Shown one piece after another: positions 4,919 through 11,016 of a DNA stretch of 50,341 nucleotides. Position 1 is the first letter of the stretch, and the number at the start of each line of letters is the position of its first letter. Source of the DNA: Anaerolineae bacterium (lineage in GTDB: Bacteria; Desulfobacterota; Desulfobacteria; Desulfobacterales; ETH-SRB1). A program made the translations under genes and the position numbers. The stretch spans positions 1-50,341 of the forward strand of contig DATKWZ010000052.1 in NCBI GenBank assembly GCA_035529315.1. Reading direction: 5' to 3'. Below the pieces are notes generated by a model. It saw only the letters and a program-made list of their open reading frames with translations. It ran no database searches and was not told the origin of the DNA.

Positions 4919-5743
4919 ATGGGGTTGAAGGATAAAGATGGGTTGCAAATCAACGAAGCAGATAGAGAGCCGATGATACGCTTACTTGAACGTGTGGGAA
5001 GACCCTTTCTAATTGCTGTTGAAGAATCCGGCAGGATTATACTGCTTTTAATTTCCGCAATCACCTGGATGTTGCGCCCGCCGTTTCGTTTCCGGCTTAT
5101 TTTTAAGCAGATGGAGTTTGTTGGAGTCAACTCGATCTTTGTTGTGTTGATAACAGGAATATTTACCGGCATGGTGTTTGCCCTTCAATCGTATTATGGT
5201 TTCAAAATGTTCGGGGGTGAAAGCCTGGTCGGCGCAACCGTTGCGTTGGGTCTGACGCGGGAATTAGGGCCTGTTTTTACCGCCTTAATGGTTACGGGAC
5301 GCGTAGGTTCGGCAATGACCGCCGAACTCGGAACCATGAAGGTTACAGAGCAGATTGATGCTTTGCATAGCATGTCTGTCAACCCGATTCACTATCTTGT
5401 GATGCCGCGCATAGTTGCCGCAATATTTATGCTGCCTGTTTTGACAATAGTATCCGATTTTGTCGGCATTCTCGGCGGCTATTTTGTCGGCGTAGAGATG
5501 CTGAAAATCAATTCCGGAATTTTTATAGCTAAAATTGTTGAATTTGTTGATCTTGAAGATATTTTTAACGGTCTTATCAAAGCTGCATGTTTTGGGCTGA
5601 TACTTTCCCTGATAGGATGTTATAAAGGAATTCGTACAACCGGCGGAGCCGAAGGGGTTGGTAAGGCAACCACCCAGTCGGTCGTCCTGTCATCGGTAAC
5701 AATCTTTATTAGCGATTATTTTCTTACGTCATTTATGTTCTAA
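4919..5743 (+). CDS. mlaE: MlaE-family lipid ABC transporter permease
   Basis: Inner-membrane permease of an MCE (Mla-type) lipid transporter, which moves phospholipid between the inner membrane and the periplasmic MCE ring. The 274-residue protein has a short hydrophilic start, then a membrane core with the MlaE hallmarks: LRPPFRFRLIFKQMEFVGVNS, the conserved LTRELGPVFTALMVTGRVGSA region with the invariant EQIDAL shortly after, and the glycine-rich GCYKG turn. The ATG at 4919 has a purine-rich GGGA upstream; an earlier ATG at 4914 stops at once. It is followed, after an inserted repeat, by mlaF and the MCE protein gene. Confidence 0.93.
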   Translation: MGLKDKDGLQINEADREPMIRLLERVGRPFLIAVEESGRIILLLISAITWMLRPPFRFRLIFKQMEFVGVNSIFVVLITGIFTGMVFALQSYYGFKMFGGESLVGATVALGLTRELGPVFTALMVTGRVGSAMTAELGTMKVTEQIDALHSMSVNPIHYLVMPRIVAAIFMLPVLTIVSDFVGILGGYFVGVEMLKINSGIFIAKIVEFVDLEDIFNGLIKAACFGLILSLIGCYKGIRTTGGAEGVGKATTQSVVLSSVTIFISDYFLTSFMF

Positions 5744-5750
5744 TCCTGAT

Positions 5751-5925
5751 GAATTCGCAAAAAGTCAAAAAACACGTCATTGCGAGCAAAGCGAAGCAAT
5801 CTTATGGATTACGACACCCTGTAATTACTTGATAGCGCTGACGGTTAGCACTGATGCTTCATTCGTGTTACTACGTATCCCGCTTTCGCAGAGACACACA
5901 GGGCGGGAATGACAGAATTTTGGAC
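5751..5925 (+). repeat. Dispersed MITE-like repeat between mlaE and mlaF (copy 1)
   Basis: The left end GCAAAAAGTC (5757-5766) and several internal blocks (cGTCATtg near 5775, GATAGCGCTgacGGTTAGC near 5831, TACTACGT near 5870, GGGCGGGAATGACaGAA near 5900) match, in order and orientation, the element at 39475-39678. The right terminal repeat is degenerate, so the end is approximate. The element fills nearly the whole mlaE-mlaF gap and would have displaced the normal ribosome-binding region of mlaF. Confidence 0.65.
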
Positions 5926-5937
5926 TGTATAGTTCTA

Positions 5938-6681
5938 ATGATCGAACTTATAAAAGTATGTAAATCATTTAAAGGCCAAAAGGTTTTAGACAATCTTGAT
6001 CTCAGGATTGAGCCTGAAATGATTACCGTTATTATCGGCGGGAGTGGCGGAGGCAAAAGTGTTCTTTTAAAACATATTATGGGCCTTATTAAACCTGATT
6101 CAGGCCAGGTGCTTGTTAATGGCATTGATACTGCAAAGCTAAACGATAAGGAGCTCAACGAAATGCGAAAAATGTTCGGGATGCTTTTCCAGGACGCAGC
6201 GCTTTTTGATTCAATGACGGTTGGAGAAAATGTTGCATTCCCGCTCAAAGAGCATACAAAATTATCTAAAAAGGAAATCAGTGAAATCGTAGAAGAAAAA
6301 TTATTACAGGTTGGTTTAAAAAATGTAACACACAAGATGCCTTCTGAGCTGTCAGGAGGAATGCGAAAGCGTGTCGGGCTTGCAAGGGCTATCGCGCTTA
6401 ATCCTAAAATTGTGTTGTTTGACGAACCCACAACCGGTCTTGATCCTATTATGTGCGAAAGCATTGACGACCTTATTATAAATACACAGCTTAACACAAA
6501 GGCAACCTTTGTCGTTATTAGTCACGATATCGGATCTACTTTCAAGATTGCGCATAAGGTGGCAATGTTGTATGAAGGAAAGATTATAAAAACAGGAACT
6601 CCCGAAGAAATACGATCGTCTAATAATCCTGTTATTAAACGGTTCATTAGCAGGGAAATCGAAAAAGCATGTCAAACTTAA
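5938..6681 (+). CDS. mlaF: MlaF-family lipid ABC transporter ATPase
   Basis: Cytoplasmic ATPase that powers the MlaE permease. From the ATG at 5938 it has 247 residues, with Walker A GGSGGGKS (34-41), Q-loop GMLFQDAALF (81-90), ABC signature LSGGM (138-142) and Walker B IVLFDEPTTGLDP (158-170). The open frame extends in frame back to 5854, but that part is repeat sequence with no family similarity, so I chose 5938, where MIELIKVCKSF begins the usual fold. No clear Shine-Dalgarno precedes this ATG, consistent with the upstream insertion. It overlaps the MCE gene by 13 nt. Confidence 0.92.
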   Translation: MIELIKVCKSFKGQKVLDNLDLRIEPEMITVIIGGSGGGKSVLLKHIMGLIKPDSGQVLVNGIDTAKLNDKELNEMRKMFGMLFQDAALFDSMTVGENVAFPLKEHTKLSKKEISEIVEEKLLQVGLKNVTHKMPSELSGGMRKRVGLARAIALNPKIVLFDEPTTGLDPIMCESIDDLIINTQLNTKATFVVISHDIGSTFKIAHKVAMLYEGKIIKTGTPEEIRSSNNPVIKRFISREIEKACQT

Positions 6682-8048
6682 CTGTTGAAGCAAAAGTAGG
6701 TGTTTTTGTAGTAGCCGGAATTCTCATCCTGACATATATGTCAATGCGGGTTGGAGGAGTGAGCTTTAAAAGAGCAAAGGGATATGATGTTAATGTATAT
6801 TTTGACTCTGCAACAGGTCTTGCAGAGGATGTTCAGGTAGAAATTGCCGGCGTGGAGGTCGGCAGGGTTCGCAAGATTTCTCTGGAAAACGGAAAAGCGC
6901 TGGTTGCTTTAAGAATTAATTCCAATGTAAGGCTGACAAGGGATGTAGAGGCTGTTATCAGGACCAAGGGTATTCTTGGCGATAAATATATTGAACTTGT
7001 CCAGGGATCTCCTTCCGCTCCCCAGCTAAAAGAGGGTGACAGGATCGTCAAAACAGTCCCAACAACGGACATGGATACCCTTATGATTACCCTGGGAGAT
7101 GTGGCAAAAAATATCAACAGGCTGACAAATTCCCTGGCAAATGTTGTCGGCGGCGAAAAGGGGGAGGCTTCACTTAACTCTATCGTTGAAAATATTAAAG
7201 AAATGGTTGAAACCTTAAATAAAACCGTTCAGGAAAACAATCATGATGTCACAAACATAATTGCCAATCTGTCCAAGTTTTCAGGAACATTAAACAAAAT
7301 AGGAGATACTAACAGGGAGGATATCCGCGGTATAATATCTAATGTGCGCAAGGCCTCCGAAAAAATGGAGGTGCTGTTCGCCGACATTAACGAGATTACG
7401 TCCAAGATTAATCAGGGCAAAGGAAGCATCGGAAAGCTGGTAAACGAGGATGAAACAGTAGAAAATATTAATACCTCTCTCGTCAGCATAAACGATTATC
7501 TCCAGAAACAGGACGAATATAAAACATATCTTGATTATAGAGGAGAATATCTTTTTGACAGTAATGAAGTTAAATCTTATCTTTCGCTTCGCATTCAACC
7601 CAGGGAGGATAAATATTATCTGCTTCAGGTATTGGACGATCCAAGCGGAAAGGAAGAGATAAAAGATACCACAACAAACGGAAATACTACACGTACAGTG
7701 GAAAACGACAAGGATGCACTCAAATTTTCAGCACAGATAGCAAAACGATATTATGACATCGGATTGCGCGGCGGTCTTTTCGAATCTACCGGTGGTGTCG
7801 GCCTTGATTACTATCTCTTCAGTGACTGCTTGACCCTTTCACTCGAAGCCTTTGATTTTGATCCGGACAGAAACGCACACCTGAAATTCAAAGCCGACTA
7901 TAAACCGTTTAAACACATCTATATAACCTCGGGATTTGACGATTTTATAAGTGACGAAGGAAAAGAATCCTTTTTTATCGGAGCTGGAATCAGCTTTGCG
8001 GATGATGATATTAAAAGTATTTTATCAGACATCCCGATTCCTAAGTAA
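6669..8048 (+). CDS. mlaD: MCE-domain lipid transport protein with C-terminal beta-rich domain
   Basis: Periplasmic lipid-shuttling protein of the Mla/MCE transporter. The 459 residues divide into an N-terminal membrane anchor (about 9-28), an MCE domain (about 38-120, with GLAEDVQVEIAGVEVGRV and TKGILGDKYIEL), a long coiled-coil or helical region (about 130-280), and a last section of about 180 residues with alternating aromatic and polar strands (for example VGLDYYLF, LTLSLEAFDFD, IYITSGFDDF, SFFIGAGISF). The last part looks like an outer-membrane beta-barrel-type domain; typical MlaD is under 200 residues and lacks it. The start overlaps the end of mlaF. The MCE call is firm; the barrel reading is inference. 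Confidence 0.88.
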   Translation: MSNLTVEAKVGVFVVAGILILTYMSMRVGGVSFKRAKGYDVNVYFDSATGLAEDVQVEIAGVEVGRVRKISLENGKALVALRINSNVRLTRDVEAVIRTKGILGDKYIELVQGSPSAPQLKEGDRIVKTVPTTDMDTLMITLGDVAKNINRLTNSLANVVGGEKGEASLNSIVENIKEMVETLNKTVQENNHDVTNIIANLSKFSGTLNKIGDTNREDIRGIISNVRKASEKMEVLFADINEITSKINQGKGSIGKLVNEDETVENINTSLVSINDYLQKQDEYKTYLDYRGEYLFDSNEVKSYLSLRIQPREDKYYLLQVLDDPSGKEEIKDTTTNGNTTRTVENDKDALKFSAQIAKRYYDIGLRGGLFESTGGVGLDYYLFSDCLTLSLEAFDFDPDRNAHLKFKADYKPFKHIYITSGFDDFISDEGKESFFIGAGISFADDDIKSILSDIPIPK

Positions 8049-8082: not shown

Positions 8083-9507
8083 ATGATTTCCAAACCTTCA
8101 GATGAAAAAGTCAAACCATTCAAACTGGTAAAGTATTTCACCTTTACAAGCCTGATATTAACCTTTTCAGGGATACTGATTTTAGCTGGTCTCAACAATC
8201 ACTGGTCAAGAATGATGCAGATCAAGAAGAGTGAAGACTATGCCAAGCTTCTTGTAGCAAATCTTAATCATCAGGTTTATATGAAATTTTACCTTCCTCT
8301 TTCCATAACACACCAGAAGGTAATCCGGCTCAGCGAAGAAAAATATTATAAAAGAATGGATATGATCGTCAAAAGCACTTTACATAGCTTCAATGTAGAA
8401 AAGGTAAATATTTATGATAAGAATAACACAATTATTTACAGTTATGATCAAAAACTGATAGGTTCCGAGAATGTCGGAGACAAAGGGTATATAAGCGCTC
8501 TTTCAGACGCATCAACATCAAAACTGATTCAAAGAGGCAACTTTTTTCAGATCCTGTTTGGATTTCCCCAAGATGTTAAATTGATTACATTTGCTCCATT
8601 ACGCACGGAAGAGCCTTTGCCGACGTTAAAAAGACAGGTTTTTGGTGTTTTTGAAATCGTTCAAGACATATCAGAAGATTTTAAAACAATTTTTCGATTT
8701 CAGATACTTGCTATTATCACGATTGCCCTGATTATGGGCGCTCTTTTTTTGGCCCTTTTCTTTGTAGTCAAGAGGGGAGAGGCAATTATTGAAAACAGAG
8801 CCCTGGAAAGGCTGCGGCTTAAGGAGCAATTAACTAAAGCGAGACATCTGTCTTCGCTGGGAGAGATGGTAGCGGGTGTATCCCATGAAATCCGGAATCC
8901 ATTAGGGATCATCAGGAGTTCAGCCGATCTTCTAAAGAAAAAAATGAACCATTTTGATCCTTCAAGCACTATTCCGGATATAATTTTAGAAGAATCGGAT
9001 CGACTGAATAATATAATAACAGATTTTTTAAATTTTGCGAAACCTAAAATGCCGAATCTTGTACCGTGCCATGTTGAAGAAGTGCTTGACAGAAATATTA
9101 CCTTTCTTGAGCCACAGATAAAAAAACAGGGCTATATAATTAAGAAGCATTATGATAATAATCTCCCGAAAATAATGGCCGATTCCGCCATGTTATATCA
9201 GGCATTCCTTAACATATTGATAAACTCCATGCAGGCCATGCCGGGTGGCGGGGAAATAGATATTCAGCTTACTTCAAAGGATGACTCAGTAACAATTACT
9301 TTTGAAGATCAAGGGGAAGGTATGCCGGAAGATGTTATGGAAAAGATATGGGAACCTTTTTTTACTACAAAGGAAAAGGGGACGGGCCTGGGCCTGGGCA
9401 TTGTAAAAAACATCATCGAAATGCATGAAGGAAGCATCCGGATTGACAACAAACCTGCTCATGGAGCCTGTGTTAGAATTGAATTGCCGGTTCACAGTGC
9501 AATATGA
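8083..9507 (+). CDS. Membrane sensor histidine kinase (NtrB/ZraS-like)
   Basis: Sensor of a two-component system whose partner is the next gene. The 474 residues show membrane helix 1 (about 20-37), a periplasmic sensor region of about 170 residues (38-205), membrane helix 2 (208-229), then HisKA with the phosphorylated His in SHEIRNP (His268) and an HATPase domain with N-box NILINSMQAM (about 377-386), G1 box DQGEGMP and the F/G2 region WEPFFTTKEKGTGLGLGI. No PAS or HAMP is obvious. It begins 34 nt after the MCE gene, so it probably reads the state of the envelope or of lipid transport; that link is inferred from position only. Confidence 0.9.
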   Translation: MISKPSDEKVKPFKLVKYFTFTSLILTFSGILILAGLNNHWSRMMQIKKSEDYAKLLVANLNHQVYMKFYLPLSITHQKVIRLSEEKYYKRMDMIVKSTLHSFNVEKVNIYDKNNTIIYSYDQKLIGSENVGDKGYISALSDASTSKLIQRGNFFQILFGFPQDVKLITFAPLRTEEPLPTLKRQVFGVFEIVQDISEDFKTIFRFQILAIITIALIMGALFLALFFVVKRGEAIIENRALERLRLKEQLTKARHLSSLGEMVAGVSHEIRNPLGIIRSSADLLKKKMNHFDPSSTIPDIILEESDRLNNIITDFLNFAKPKMPNLVPCHVEEVLDRNITFLEPQIKKQGYIIKKHYDNNLPKIMADSAMLYQAFLNILINSMQAMPGGGEIDIQLTSKDDSVTITFEDQGEGMPEDVMEKIWEPFFTTKEKGTGLGLGIVKNIIEMHEGSIRIDNKPAHGACVRIELPVHSAI

Positions 9508-9519
9508 AAATAATAACTC

Positions 9520-9595
9520 TGTGCTCTGAATTCTTAAACCGCGACCTTATAACCCTGAACCGTGAACCCTGAACTGTTGAACCTGTGAACAGATA
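9520..9595 (+). repeat. Heptamer-type simple repeat (GAACCGTGAAC units)
   Basis: Imperfect tandem units of the form aCCctGAACcgtGAACcctGAAC fill most of the gap between the kinase and the response regulator. The same unit makes the large hairpin at 24194-24239. The function is unknown; it does not contain a terminator or clear promoter. The downstream gene keeps its own AAAGG ribosome site at about 9634. Confidence 0.5.
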
Positions 9596-9645
9596 TAAAT
9601 AGTTTTTATGATGTCTGAAGTTATATACTAATAAAGGTATCATCA

Positions 9646-11016
9646 ATGGAAACCATTCTAATCGTAGATGATGAAAAAAATTATCCACCCATATTAAGCG
9701 CTGTGCTGGAAGAAGAAGGTTTTGCGACCTTAACCGCCAATAGCGGCCAAGAGGCGCTTGAAATTCTGAATAACTCCGATGTTGACCTTGTTTTAACCGA
9801 TATGAAAATGCCTTCAATGGACGGTATTGAATTGCTTGAAAAGATCAAGACCAAAAACACCGATCTTCCGGTCATAATGATGACTGCTTACGGCACAGTG
9901 GAAAAGGCGGTACAGGCAATGCAAAAAGGGGCTTACAACTACATTCTTAAGCCTTTTGATAATGAAACGCTGGTTGTTTATGTGAACAAAGCGGTTTCAA
10001 TGTACCGCGTAGTCAAAGAAAACATATACCTGCGTGATGTTGTAAGGTTAAAGTACAGTTTCAGCAACATAATCGGCAAAAGCAAGGCAATGCAGGATGT
10101 TTTTGAGATAATCCGTAAAGTTGCGCCAACCAATGCGACCGTCCTGATCGAGGGTGAAAGCGGCACAGGAAAAGAGCTGGCGGCAAAAGCCATTCACTTT
10201 AACAGCCCAAGGCGTGGCAAACCTTTTATTGCCGTAAACTGCAGCGCCCTTGCTGAAAATCTTCTTGAAAGCGAACTTTTCGGCCACGAAAAAGGGTCAT
10301 TTACCGGTGCCATAGCCATGAAAAAGGGGCGGTTTGAAATGGCTGATGAGGGGACACTGTTTCTGGATGAAATAGGCGAGCTTTCACAAGGTCTCCAGGT
10401 AAAACTATTACGGGTTCTTCAGGAAAAGGTTGTTGAAAGGGTCGGCGGAGTTAAGCCGCTTTCCGTCAATATCCGTATTATTGCCGCCACGAACAAACAG
10501 TTAAAGGAAGAGATGAATCATGGCCGCTTCAGGGAGGACCTGTTTTACAGATTGAATGTAGTAAATATTGTCCTGCCGCCCCTGAAACAACGTATAGATG
10601 ATCTCCGGCTTTTAATTGATCACTTTATAAAAAAATATGCTGATGAACGCGGTTCAGATACTCCTGTTAAGGGTCTTGACAATGAAGTTGAACGTCTTTT
10701 TAACAATTACAACTGGCCCGGAAATGTTCGGGAGCTGGAGAATGTTATTGAGAGGGCGATGATTATGTGTTCTGATGAAATCATCAGGGTGTCCGATCTT
10801 CCCAGGGATTTCAGGAACAATGTTGACAGTTCAATGTATCTTGACGGAATACCCAGCAATGCAAAATTATATGAGACTCTTGCTCTGGTTGAAAACAATA
10901 TGATCAAAAGGGCTTTGAAGCTCACAAATAATGTTCAGTCCAATGCTGCTGAACTTTTAGGCATCGGCAAAAGCGGCCTGAGCAAAAAAATAAGCAGACA
11001 CGAACTATTACCCTAA
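9646..11016 (+). CDS. Sigma-54-dependent response regulator (NtrC family)
   Basis: Receiver-AAA-Fis activator of 456 residues. The receiver has acidic residues D8/D9, phosphorylation site D52 (in LTDMKMPSMDG), T and K in usual places. The AAA domain has Walker A GESGTGKE, sigma-54-contact loop GSFTGA (the common S variant of GAFTGA), Walker [11 protein letters not shown] and an intact arginine-finger region (GRFREDLFYRL). A Fis-type helix-turn-helix ends the protein (about 415-455). It lies 138 nt after its kinase. Paired 16-bp palindromes and a sigma-54 promoter lie immediately downstream (11200-11360), so the likely target of this regulator is right beside it. Confidence 0.94.
   Translation: METILIVDDEKNYPPILSAVLEEEGFATLTANSGQEALEILNNSDVDLVLTDMKMPSMDGIELLEKIKTKNTDLPVIMMTAYGTVEKAVQAMQKGAYNYILKPFDNETLVVYVNKAVSMYRVVKENIYLRDVVRLKYSFSNIIGKSKAMQDVFEIIRKVAPTNATVLIEGESGTGKELAAKAIHFNSPRRGKPFIAVNCSALAENLLESELFGHEKGSFTGAIAMKKGRFEMADEGTLFLDEIGELSQGLQVKLLRVLQEKVVERVGGVKPLSVNIRIIAATNKQLKEEMNHGRFREDLFYRLNVVNIVLPPLKQRIDDLRLLIDHFIKKYADERGSDTPVKGLDNEVERLFNNYNWPGNVRELENVIERAMIMCSDEIIRVSDLPRDFRNNVDSSMYLDGIPSNAKLYETLALVENNMIKRALKLTNNVQSNAAELLGIGKSGLSKKISRHELLP

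Follow-up and report, generated by a model that had tools for sequence, protein, structure and literature searches.

The window (the whole stretch of DNA that was analysed, 50,341 nucleotides) is contig C52 of a 2.2-Mb genome of 57 contigs, a MAG with a completeness of 97.77%. It carries three genes in the order mlaE-mlaF-mlaD in one operon. The third gene encodes a protein of 459 residues whose closest named relatives, from Candidatus Desulfaltia and Desulfobacterales MAGs, are 75–85% identical to it across the protein. The features of the operon and of its elongated MlaD were as follows.

4919..5743, + strand: mlaE, permease, 274 aa (PF02405, 286 bits; TIGR00056, 280 bits against a cut-off of 212)
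5854..6681, + strand: mlaF, ATPase (PF00005, 118 bits)
6669..8048, + strand: elongated mlaD, 459 aa, with N-terminal helix, MCE domain, long helix and beta-barrel in that order
6684..6752, + strand: N-terminal helix, residues 6–28 (predicted by AlphaFold2)
6777..7007, + strand: MCE/MlaD domain, residues 37–113 (Pfam MlaD PF02470, 72 bits against a cut-off of 25.1)
7071..7508, + strand: helical needle region, residues 135–280 (AlphaFold2 helices, pLDDT <50)
7416..7439, + strand: glycine motif GKGSIGKL, residues 250–257, core of a 34-residue unit (found with a loose motif pattern)
7521..8000, + strand: C-terminal beta-barrel, residues 285–444 (ten main strands plus a hairpin at 328–347, predicted by AlphaFold2)
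7596..7619, + strand: turn QPREDKYY, residues 310–317, joining strands 2 and 3 (QP(R/K)EDKYY in 81 of 81 rows)
8001..8027, + strand: short conserved helix past the last strand, residues 445–453 (AlphaFold2 and conservation)

The top NCBIfam match of mlaF was MlaF PRK11831, at 195 bits (below its cut-off of 441). Judging from the translation, its true start is likely an internal Met codon near 5935. The 3' end of mlaF overlaps the 5' end of mlaD by 13 bases. For mlaD, both the model of the short MlaD of the six-part Mla system (TIGR04430, 111.6 bits, cut-off 135) and that of the actinobacterial MCE family (TIGR00996, 119.8 bits, cut-off 140.5) scored below their cut-offs. Rfam had no match anywhere in the window, and no match was obtained from the plasmids and phages searched. 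Downstream of mlaD, at 8083–11016, lie a histidine kinase and then an NtrC-type response regulator. Among 80 loci with a barrel-bearing mlaD, a kinase match was present in 18 and a regulator match in 16, some of them non-adjacent or on the opposite strand; in several Desulfobacterota loci they follow mlaD. Regulation of the operon by this pair and a chance neighbourhood are both possible.

Two alignments (A1 and A3) were made from 79 of the 80 loci plus the window; one locus, L027, was left out for an X in its protein. Counts over 81 rows include L027. Partial loci (e.g. L017 and L026) were kept in the alignments, and length counts were taken over 76 of the 81 rows. An 80-row alignment was the input for the full-length AlphaFold2 model.

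The computed domain order of MlaD begins with the helix of residues 6–28, a probable inner-membrane anchor. The MCE domain that follows was modelled with a pLDDT of about 88–94 in most blocks. The first-pass annotation had described a long helical region after it, and helices were indeed predicted over the low-pLDDT span from 135 to 280. Across the family, the hydrophobicity of residues 135–248 had a period of 102.5 degrees, i.e. that of a heptad, with a power of 0.147 against a 99% null level of 0.082.

The remainder of the chain had been read as a domain of alternating strands rich in Tyr, Phe and Asp, and composition, shuffles and structure prediction agree on this. Residues 280–459 (180 aa) contain 13 Tyr, 13 Phe and 23 Asp, and Tyr plus Phe make up 14.4% of them, versus 3.6% of residues 1–279. 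In the full-length AlphaFold2 model the barrel strands are 285–295, 300–312, 315–323, 351–361, 364–371, 374–383, 388–395, 404–411, 417–424 and 434–444. The segment SFFIGAGISF, earlier taken for a terminal strand, falls inside the last of these and is succeeded by the helix of 445–453, in which D447 is invariant (alignment A1) and D445, D447 and K449 all have entropies below 0.3 bits. When residues 284–459 were modelled alone, the structure prediction that had been proposed as a check of this domain returned the same strands, with a pLDDT of 88.9 and a pTM of 0.78. DSSP divided the barrel-alone model into twelve strand segments, including 328–336 and 339–347. A twelve-strand barrel was rejected; these two segments sit in a very polar loop that is shortened in some loci (e.g. 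L031 and L042). They are better read as a hairpin atop strands 3 and 4, in what would be the second outer loop, which leaves a predicted ten membrane strands. A profile of the barrel had no match to PDB sequences up to an E-value of 10. When Pfam was run on 80 barrel members, the barrel of the window was unmatched, and the matches among the other members comprised three families at chance level, each in one or two members.

Structural comparison placed the predicted domain nearest to transmembrane barrels. The single Foldseek match to the PDB at E ≤0.001 was 8uzl, a designed ten-strand transmembrane barrel (6.4e-4), and the rest of the top 50 were for the most part outer-membrane proteins. VIA-align also put 8uzl first (Z 14.8, rmsd 2.6 Å, 132 residues aligned), followed mainly by outer-membrane proteins. 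Soluble barrels were found by VIA-align too (2o62, Z 13.1; 5yvf, Z 12.8; 4tq2, Z 10.7), and because their Z-scores are also high, the fold alone does not decide for the outer-membrane type. These matches can be cited for another reading, that of a soluble, calycin-like barrel in the periplasm which binds the outer membrane or a partner without being integral; that the only Foldseek match below 0.001 is transmembrane, and that outer-membrane proteins dominate the top 50, speak against it. The pattern of polar and non-polar residues is also open to this reading. In the barrel strands the mean contrast of the alternation was 3.51 (null 1.51, sd 0.35), a value reached in 0 of 5000 within-strand shuffles. 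In the soluble MCE strands the observed alternation was reached in 11 of 5000. Because the soluble MCE strands alternate likewise, alternation was not accepted as proof that the barrel is of the outer-membrane type.

The alternation still counts as one of three points on the side of the outer membrane; the other two are the conservation of the faces and the lengths of the loops. Charged and polar residues of the polar face, R291, E293, R308, Q310, R367, D380, E393 and D424 among them, are conserved across phyla; on the hydrophobic face of the strands, L, V, I and F interchange. The polar residues therefore probably point inward, with the interchangeable face outside, an arrangement that argues against the soluble barrel. 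The same holds for the loops, which on the side opposite the termini have 4, 27–28, 2, 8 and 9 residues, compared with 2, 2, 4 and 5 in the turns on the termini side. In outer-membrane barrels the longer loops are on the far side and the short turns are on the periplasmic side, with the termini; because the lengths fit this pattern, both termini of the barrel would be periplasmic. The last strand was also compared with the beta-signal, in which a polar residue, any residue, Gly, two of any kind, a hydrophobic residue, one of any kind and an aromatic residue succeed each other. G438 is present in 81 of 81 rows, I441 is hydrophobic and F443 is found in 80 of 81; at 436 the residue is Phe, which is non-polar, and a tail of 16 residues runs on past F443. 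One Omp85 (BamA-type) gene and one LptD gene are encoded in the genome, so an outer membrane of the LPS type is likely. The predictions thus support a ten-strand beta-barrel of the outer-membrane type, and we regard a soluble barrel as improbable.

The first-pass annotation had envisaged a beta sheet able to form a barrel shared between chains. This part of its proposal did not hold up: each chain has ten strands of its own and, modelled singly, aligns to ten-strand barrels that are closed. Each chain would thus close its own barrel, with no need for sharing. Covariation between strands (mutual information with APC, effectively 39 sequences) averaged 0.66 for adjacent strands, 0.58 for non-adjacent ones (sd 0.26) and 0.53 for strands 1 and 10, and is uninformative on closure. 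A single large, TolC-like barrel, built from the strands of all the opened chains and able to pass lipid, is very improbable on these grounds; Grasekamp et al. (PMC10665443) raise such a larger, fused barrel as a possibility for Veillonella parvula, judging a single barrel not wide enough for lipid and six barrels in a ring unlikely.

The earlier observation that no mlaB, mlaC or mlaA follows mlaD was borne out and extended. No gene for a STAS (mlaB-like) protein, MlaC or MlaA adjoins mlaD, and neither MlaA nor MlaC had a match in the whole genome, for which, at a MAG completeness of 97.77%, absence of the genes is no proof. Two STAS_2 genes were found, both on other contigs, and an unlinked MlaB may be encoded elsewhere in the genome. 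Despite the presence of Omp85 and LptD, the Pfam families TamB (PF04357) and AsmA (PF05170) had no match in the genome. A second MCE system is located on contig C6 (L002) and comprises an MlaE-like permease, a weak match to an ABC ATPase and two further proteins. Its MCE protein, of 322 aa, is too short for a barrel of the mlaD type, and a 256-aa, lipoprotein-like protein in this system has no Pfam match. This second, barrel-less system could also carry lipid.

The distribution of these partners was surveyed in 58 related genomes, the window's genome among them. A genome counted as having a barrel MlaD when its match to the protein extended into the C-terminal part, which was so in 20. MlaA was found in 2 of these 20 versus 33 of the 38 others (Fisher p about 1e-8) and MlaC in 2 of the 20 versus 32 of the 38 (Fisher p about 4e-8), p-values that ignore kinship. 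One exception, G001, has a partial MlaA match (3–88 of 195). The other, G031, encodes a short MlaD in addition to the barrel one, and it is next to this short form, on a different contig, that its MlaC and MlaA genes lie. In a sample of 297 genomes of the phylum, which shares some genomes with the order sample and likewise carries no correction for relatedness, the barrel profile matched 53; MlaA was present in 12 of these versus 139 of the 244 others, and MlaC in 12 versus 156. Fourteen of the 53 have MlaA or MlaC (12 MlaA, 12 MlaC, 10 both). A single partner occurs beside a barrel MlaD in four genomes: MlaC alone in G068 and G141 (family f58), and MlaA alone in G210 and G297. A strict rule that a barrel MlaD excludes MlaA and MlaC was rejected because of the 14 exceptions, which also make replacement of MlaA/MlaC by the barrel MlaD less than strict; the two tend to exclude each other, as a trend. 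Among the 80 loci, mlaE was found near the barrel mlaD in 25 (flank up to 6 kb). In the majority of the Myxococcota loci (L028–L082), both mlaE and mlaF are missing from these flanks. That MlaD is an ordinary Mla component working with MlaA and MlaC, its beta domain a mere accessory, is most improbable: the 14 genomes that retain a partner and the co-occurrence in G031 can be cited for it, whereas the window's genome has no match to either protein, the two are nearly exclusive among the 58 relatives, and in G031 the MlaA and MlaC genes go with the short MlaD rather than with the barrel one.

We consider it likely that this mlaD encodes an elongated, barrel-bearing MlaD of the V. parvula MlaEFD type, which bridges both membranes. 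MlaE and MlaF would form the inner-membrane ABC transporter. MlaD would be held by its N-terminal helix, with an MCE ring placed on the transporter by analogy with the family, whose solved members are hexameric. The heptad-patterned helices would bundle into a hollow needle; with a helix rise of 1.5 Å per residue, its 146 residues would measure about 22 nm if fully helical. The end of every chain would be its own ten-strand barrel in the outer membrane. It had been suggested that one polypeptide could span the inner membrane, the periplasm and the outer membrane, an idea with good, if inferential, support: the predicted chain would have the length to traverse the periplasm and would end in a barrel of the outer-membrane type. 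Lipid would travel along the needle, entering or exiting at the junction of needle and barrel, and the MlaC shuttle and MlaA would be dispensable. The narrowness of the barrel and the conserved charged residues on its polar face make a role in anchoring and docking likelier than one as the lipid pore. It is from the predictions and gene content given above that we infer the outer-membrane localisation, the oligomer and the lipid path. A protein that keeps its inner-membrane helix uncleaved and also ends in an outer-membrane barrel needs an unusual order of assembly; this counts against the bridge, as does the low pLDDT of the needle helices.

Two details of the protein bear on the place where needle and barrel would meet. 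The turn between strands 2 and 3, on the termini side of the barrel, has an entropy of 0.00 in the non-redundant set of 43 rows, the lowest of the turn and loop groups measured. Of the two ends of the barrel, the putative periplasmic one varies less, with a mean of 1.36 bits over 44 positions against 1.79 bits over 71 positions at the outer end. The glycine motif is located 60 residues ahead of QP(R/K)EDKYY in 81 of 81 rows when its pattern is slightly loosened, and where it is repeated its copies are 34 residues apart in 17 of 19 spacings. The 34-residue unit with the core GxGSxGKL occurs once in the window, at 7383–7493 (residues 239–275), and in at least two copies in most of the closest relatives. 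Among the window and L003–L016 (15 of the 81 rows), the helix spans 152 residues (one row, the window), 154 (three), 179 (one), 186 (eight) or 220 (two). Over the whole family a stepwise helix length was rejected; rows with a single motif are spread over several lengths, many of them of 172–183 residues. The single unit of the window resembles a fusion of the first half of the relatives' unit 1 with the second half of their unit 2. Because the units of the relatives compared share just 56–71% DNA identity, collapse by the assembler is no obvious cause of it.

A tentative interpretation, which we put forward as possible and think somewhat doubtful, is that in part of the Desulfobacterota the unit (about 5 nm) is a module whose gain or loss fits the needle to the width of the periplasm, with the last unit fixed 60 residues from QP(R/K)EDKYY. 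The turn and the helix after the last strand might then act as a docking collar, or might gate the lipid, at the contact of needle and outer membrane, and the window might have lost one unit in frame. PREDKYY was not found in the literature by text search, and the terms “motif” and “conserved residue” are absent from the main text of PMC10665443. The turn and, in some Desulfobacterota, the length-changing unit are possibly new details; the invariant residues of the one and the lengths of the other are concrete and open to testing.

The designed barrel TMB10_163 (8uzl) shares the ten-strand barrel with MlaD; it is artificial, and there is no common descent. PqiB and mycobacterial Mce1 likewise have an MCE ring and a helical tunnel across the envelope, but their chains carry no ten-strand barrel. 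According to the text of PMC10665443, there are three MCE rings in PqiB and, in Mce1, six different chains that give one strand each; PqiB has in addition an outer-membrane lipoprotein partner in the account of the Pqi paper (PMC10897342), which also mentions tunnel-like Mla systems. In E. coli and Acinetobacter, where the Mla system has six parts, the short MlaD has the anchor helix, the MCE domain and the partners MlaE and MlaF in common with the present protein; unlike it, the short form has neither needle nor barrel and requires MlaC and MlaA.

The architecture, and the argument from missing MlaA and MlaC, are already published for V. parvula (Grasekamp et al. 2023, PMC10665443), and the present protein is another example, not a new type. 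In that account the barrel was found in 103 MlaD sequences (about 10%), is widespread and is found preferentially in the absence of MlaA and MlaC; the V. parvula needle is also cited in the text of a paper on Brucella (PMC12436622). The locus described here adds a Desulfobacterota case to the one barrel MlaD that has been studied experimentally. Within the same order, some relatives have the barrel bridge and others the MlaA/MlaC shuttle, and they offer a natural comparison for the replacement of one lipid-transport design by the other. As described in PMC10665443, V. parvula MlaD differs from the present protein in length (419 versus 459 residues), and its locus continues with tolC and tamB, in contrast to the kinase and regulator found here and the lack of a TamB or AsmA Pfam match. 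Its predicted tunnel is about 23.5 nm, and on fractionation a TMD-MCE construct went with the inner membrane and the isolated barrel with outer-membrane fractions. The likeness of the two proteins is one of architecture: each has an N-terminal transmembrane helix, one MCE domain, a helix of about 150 residues and a predicted ten-strand barrel, and each is encoded with mlaE and mlaF in an operon, with MlaA and MlaC absent from V. parvula in that account and without a match in the present genome.
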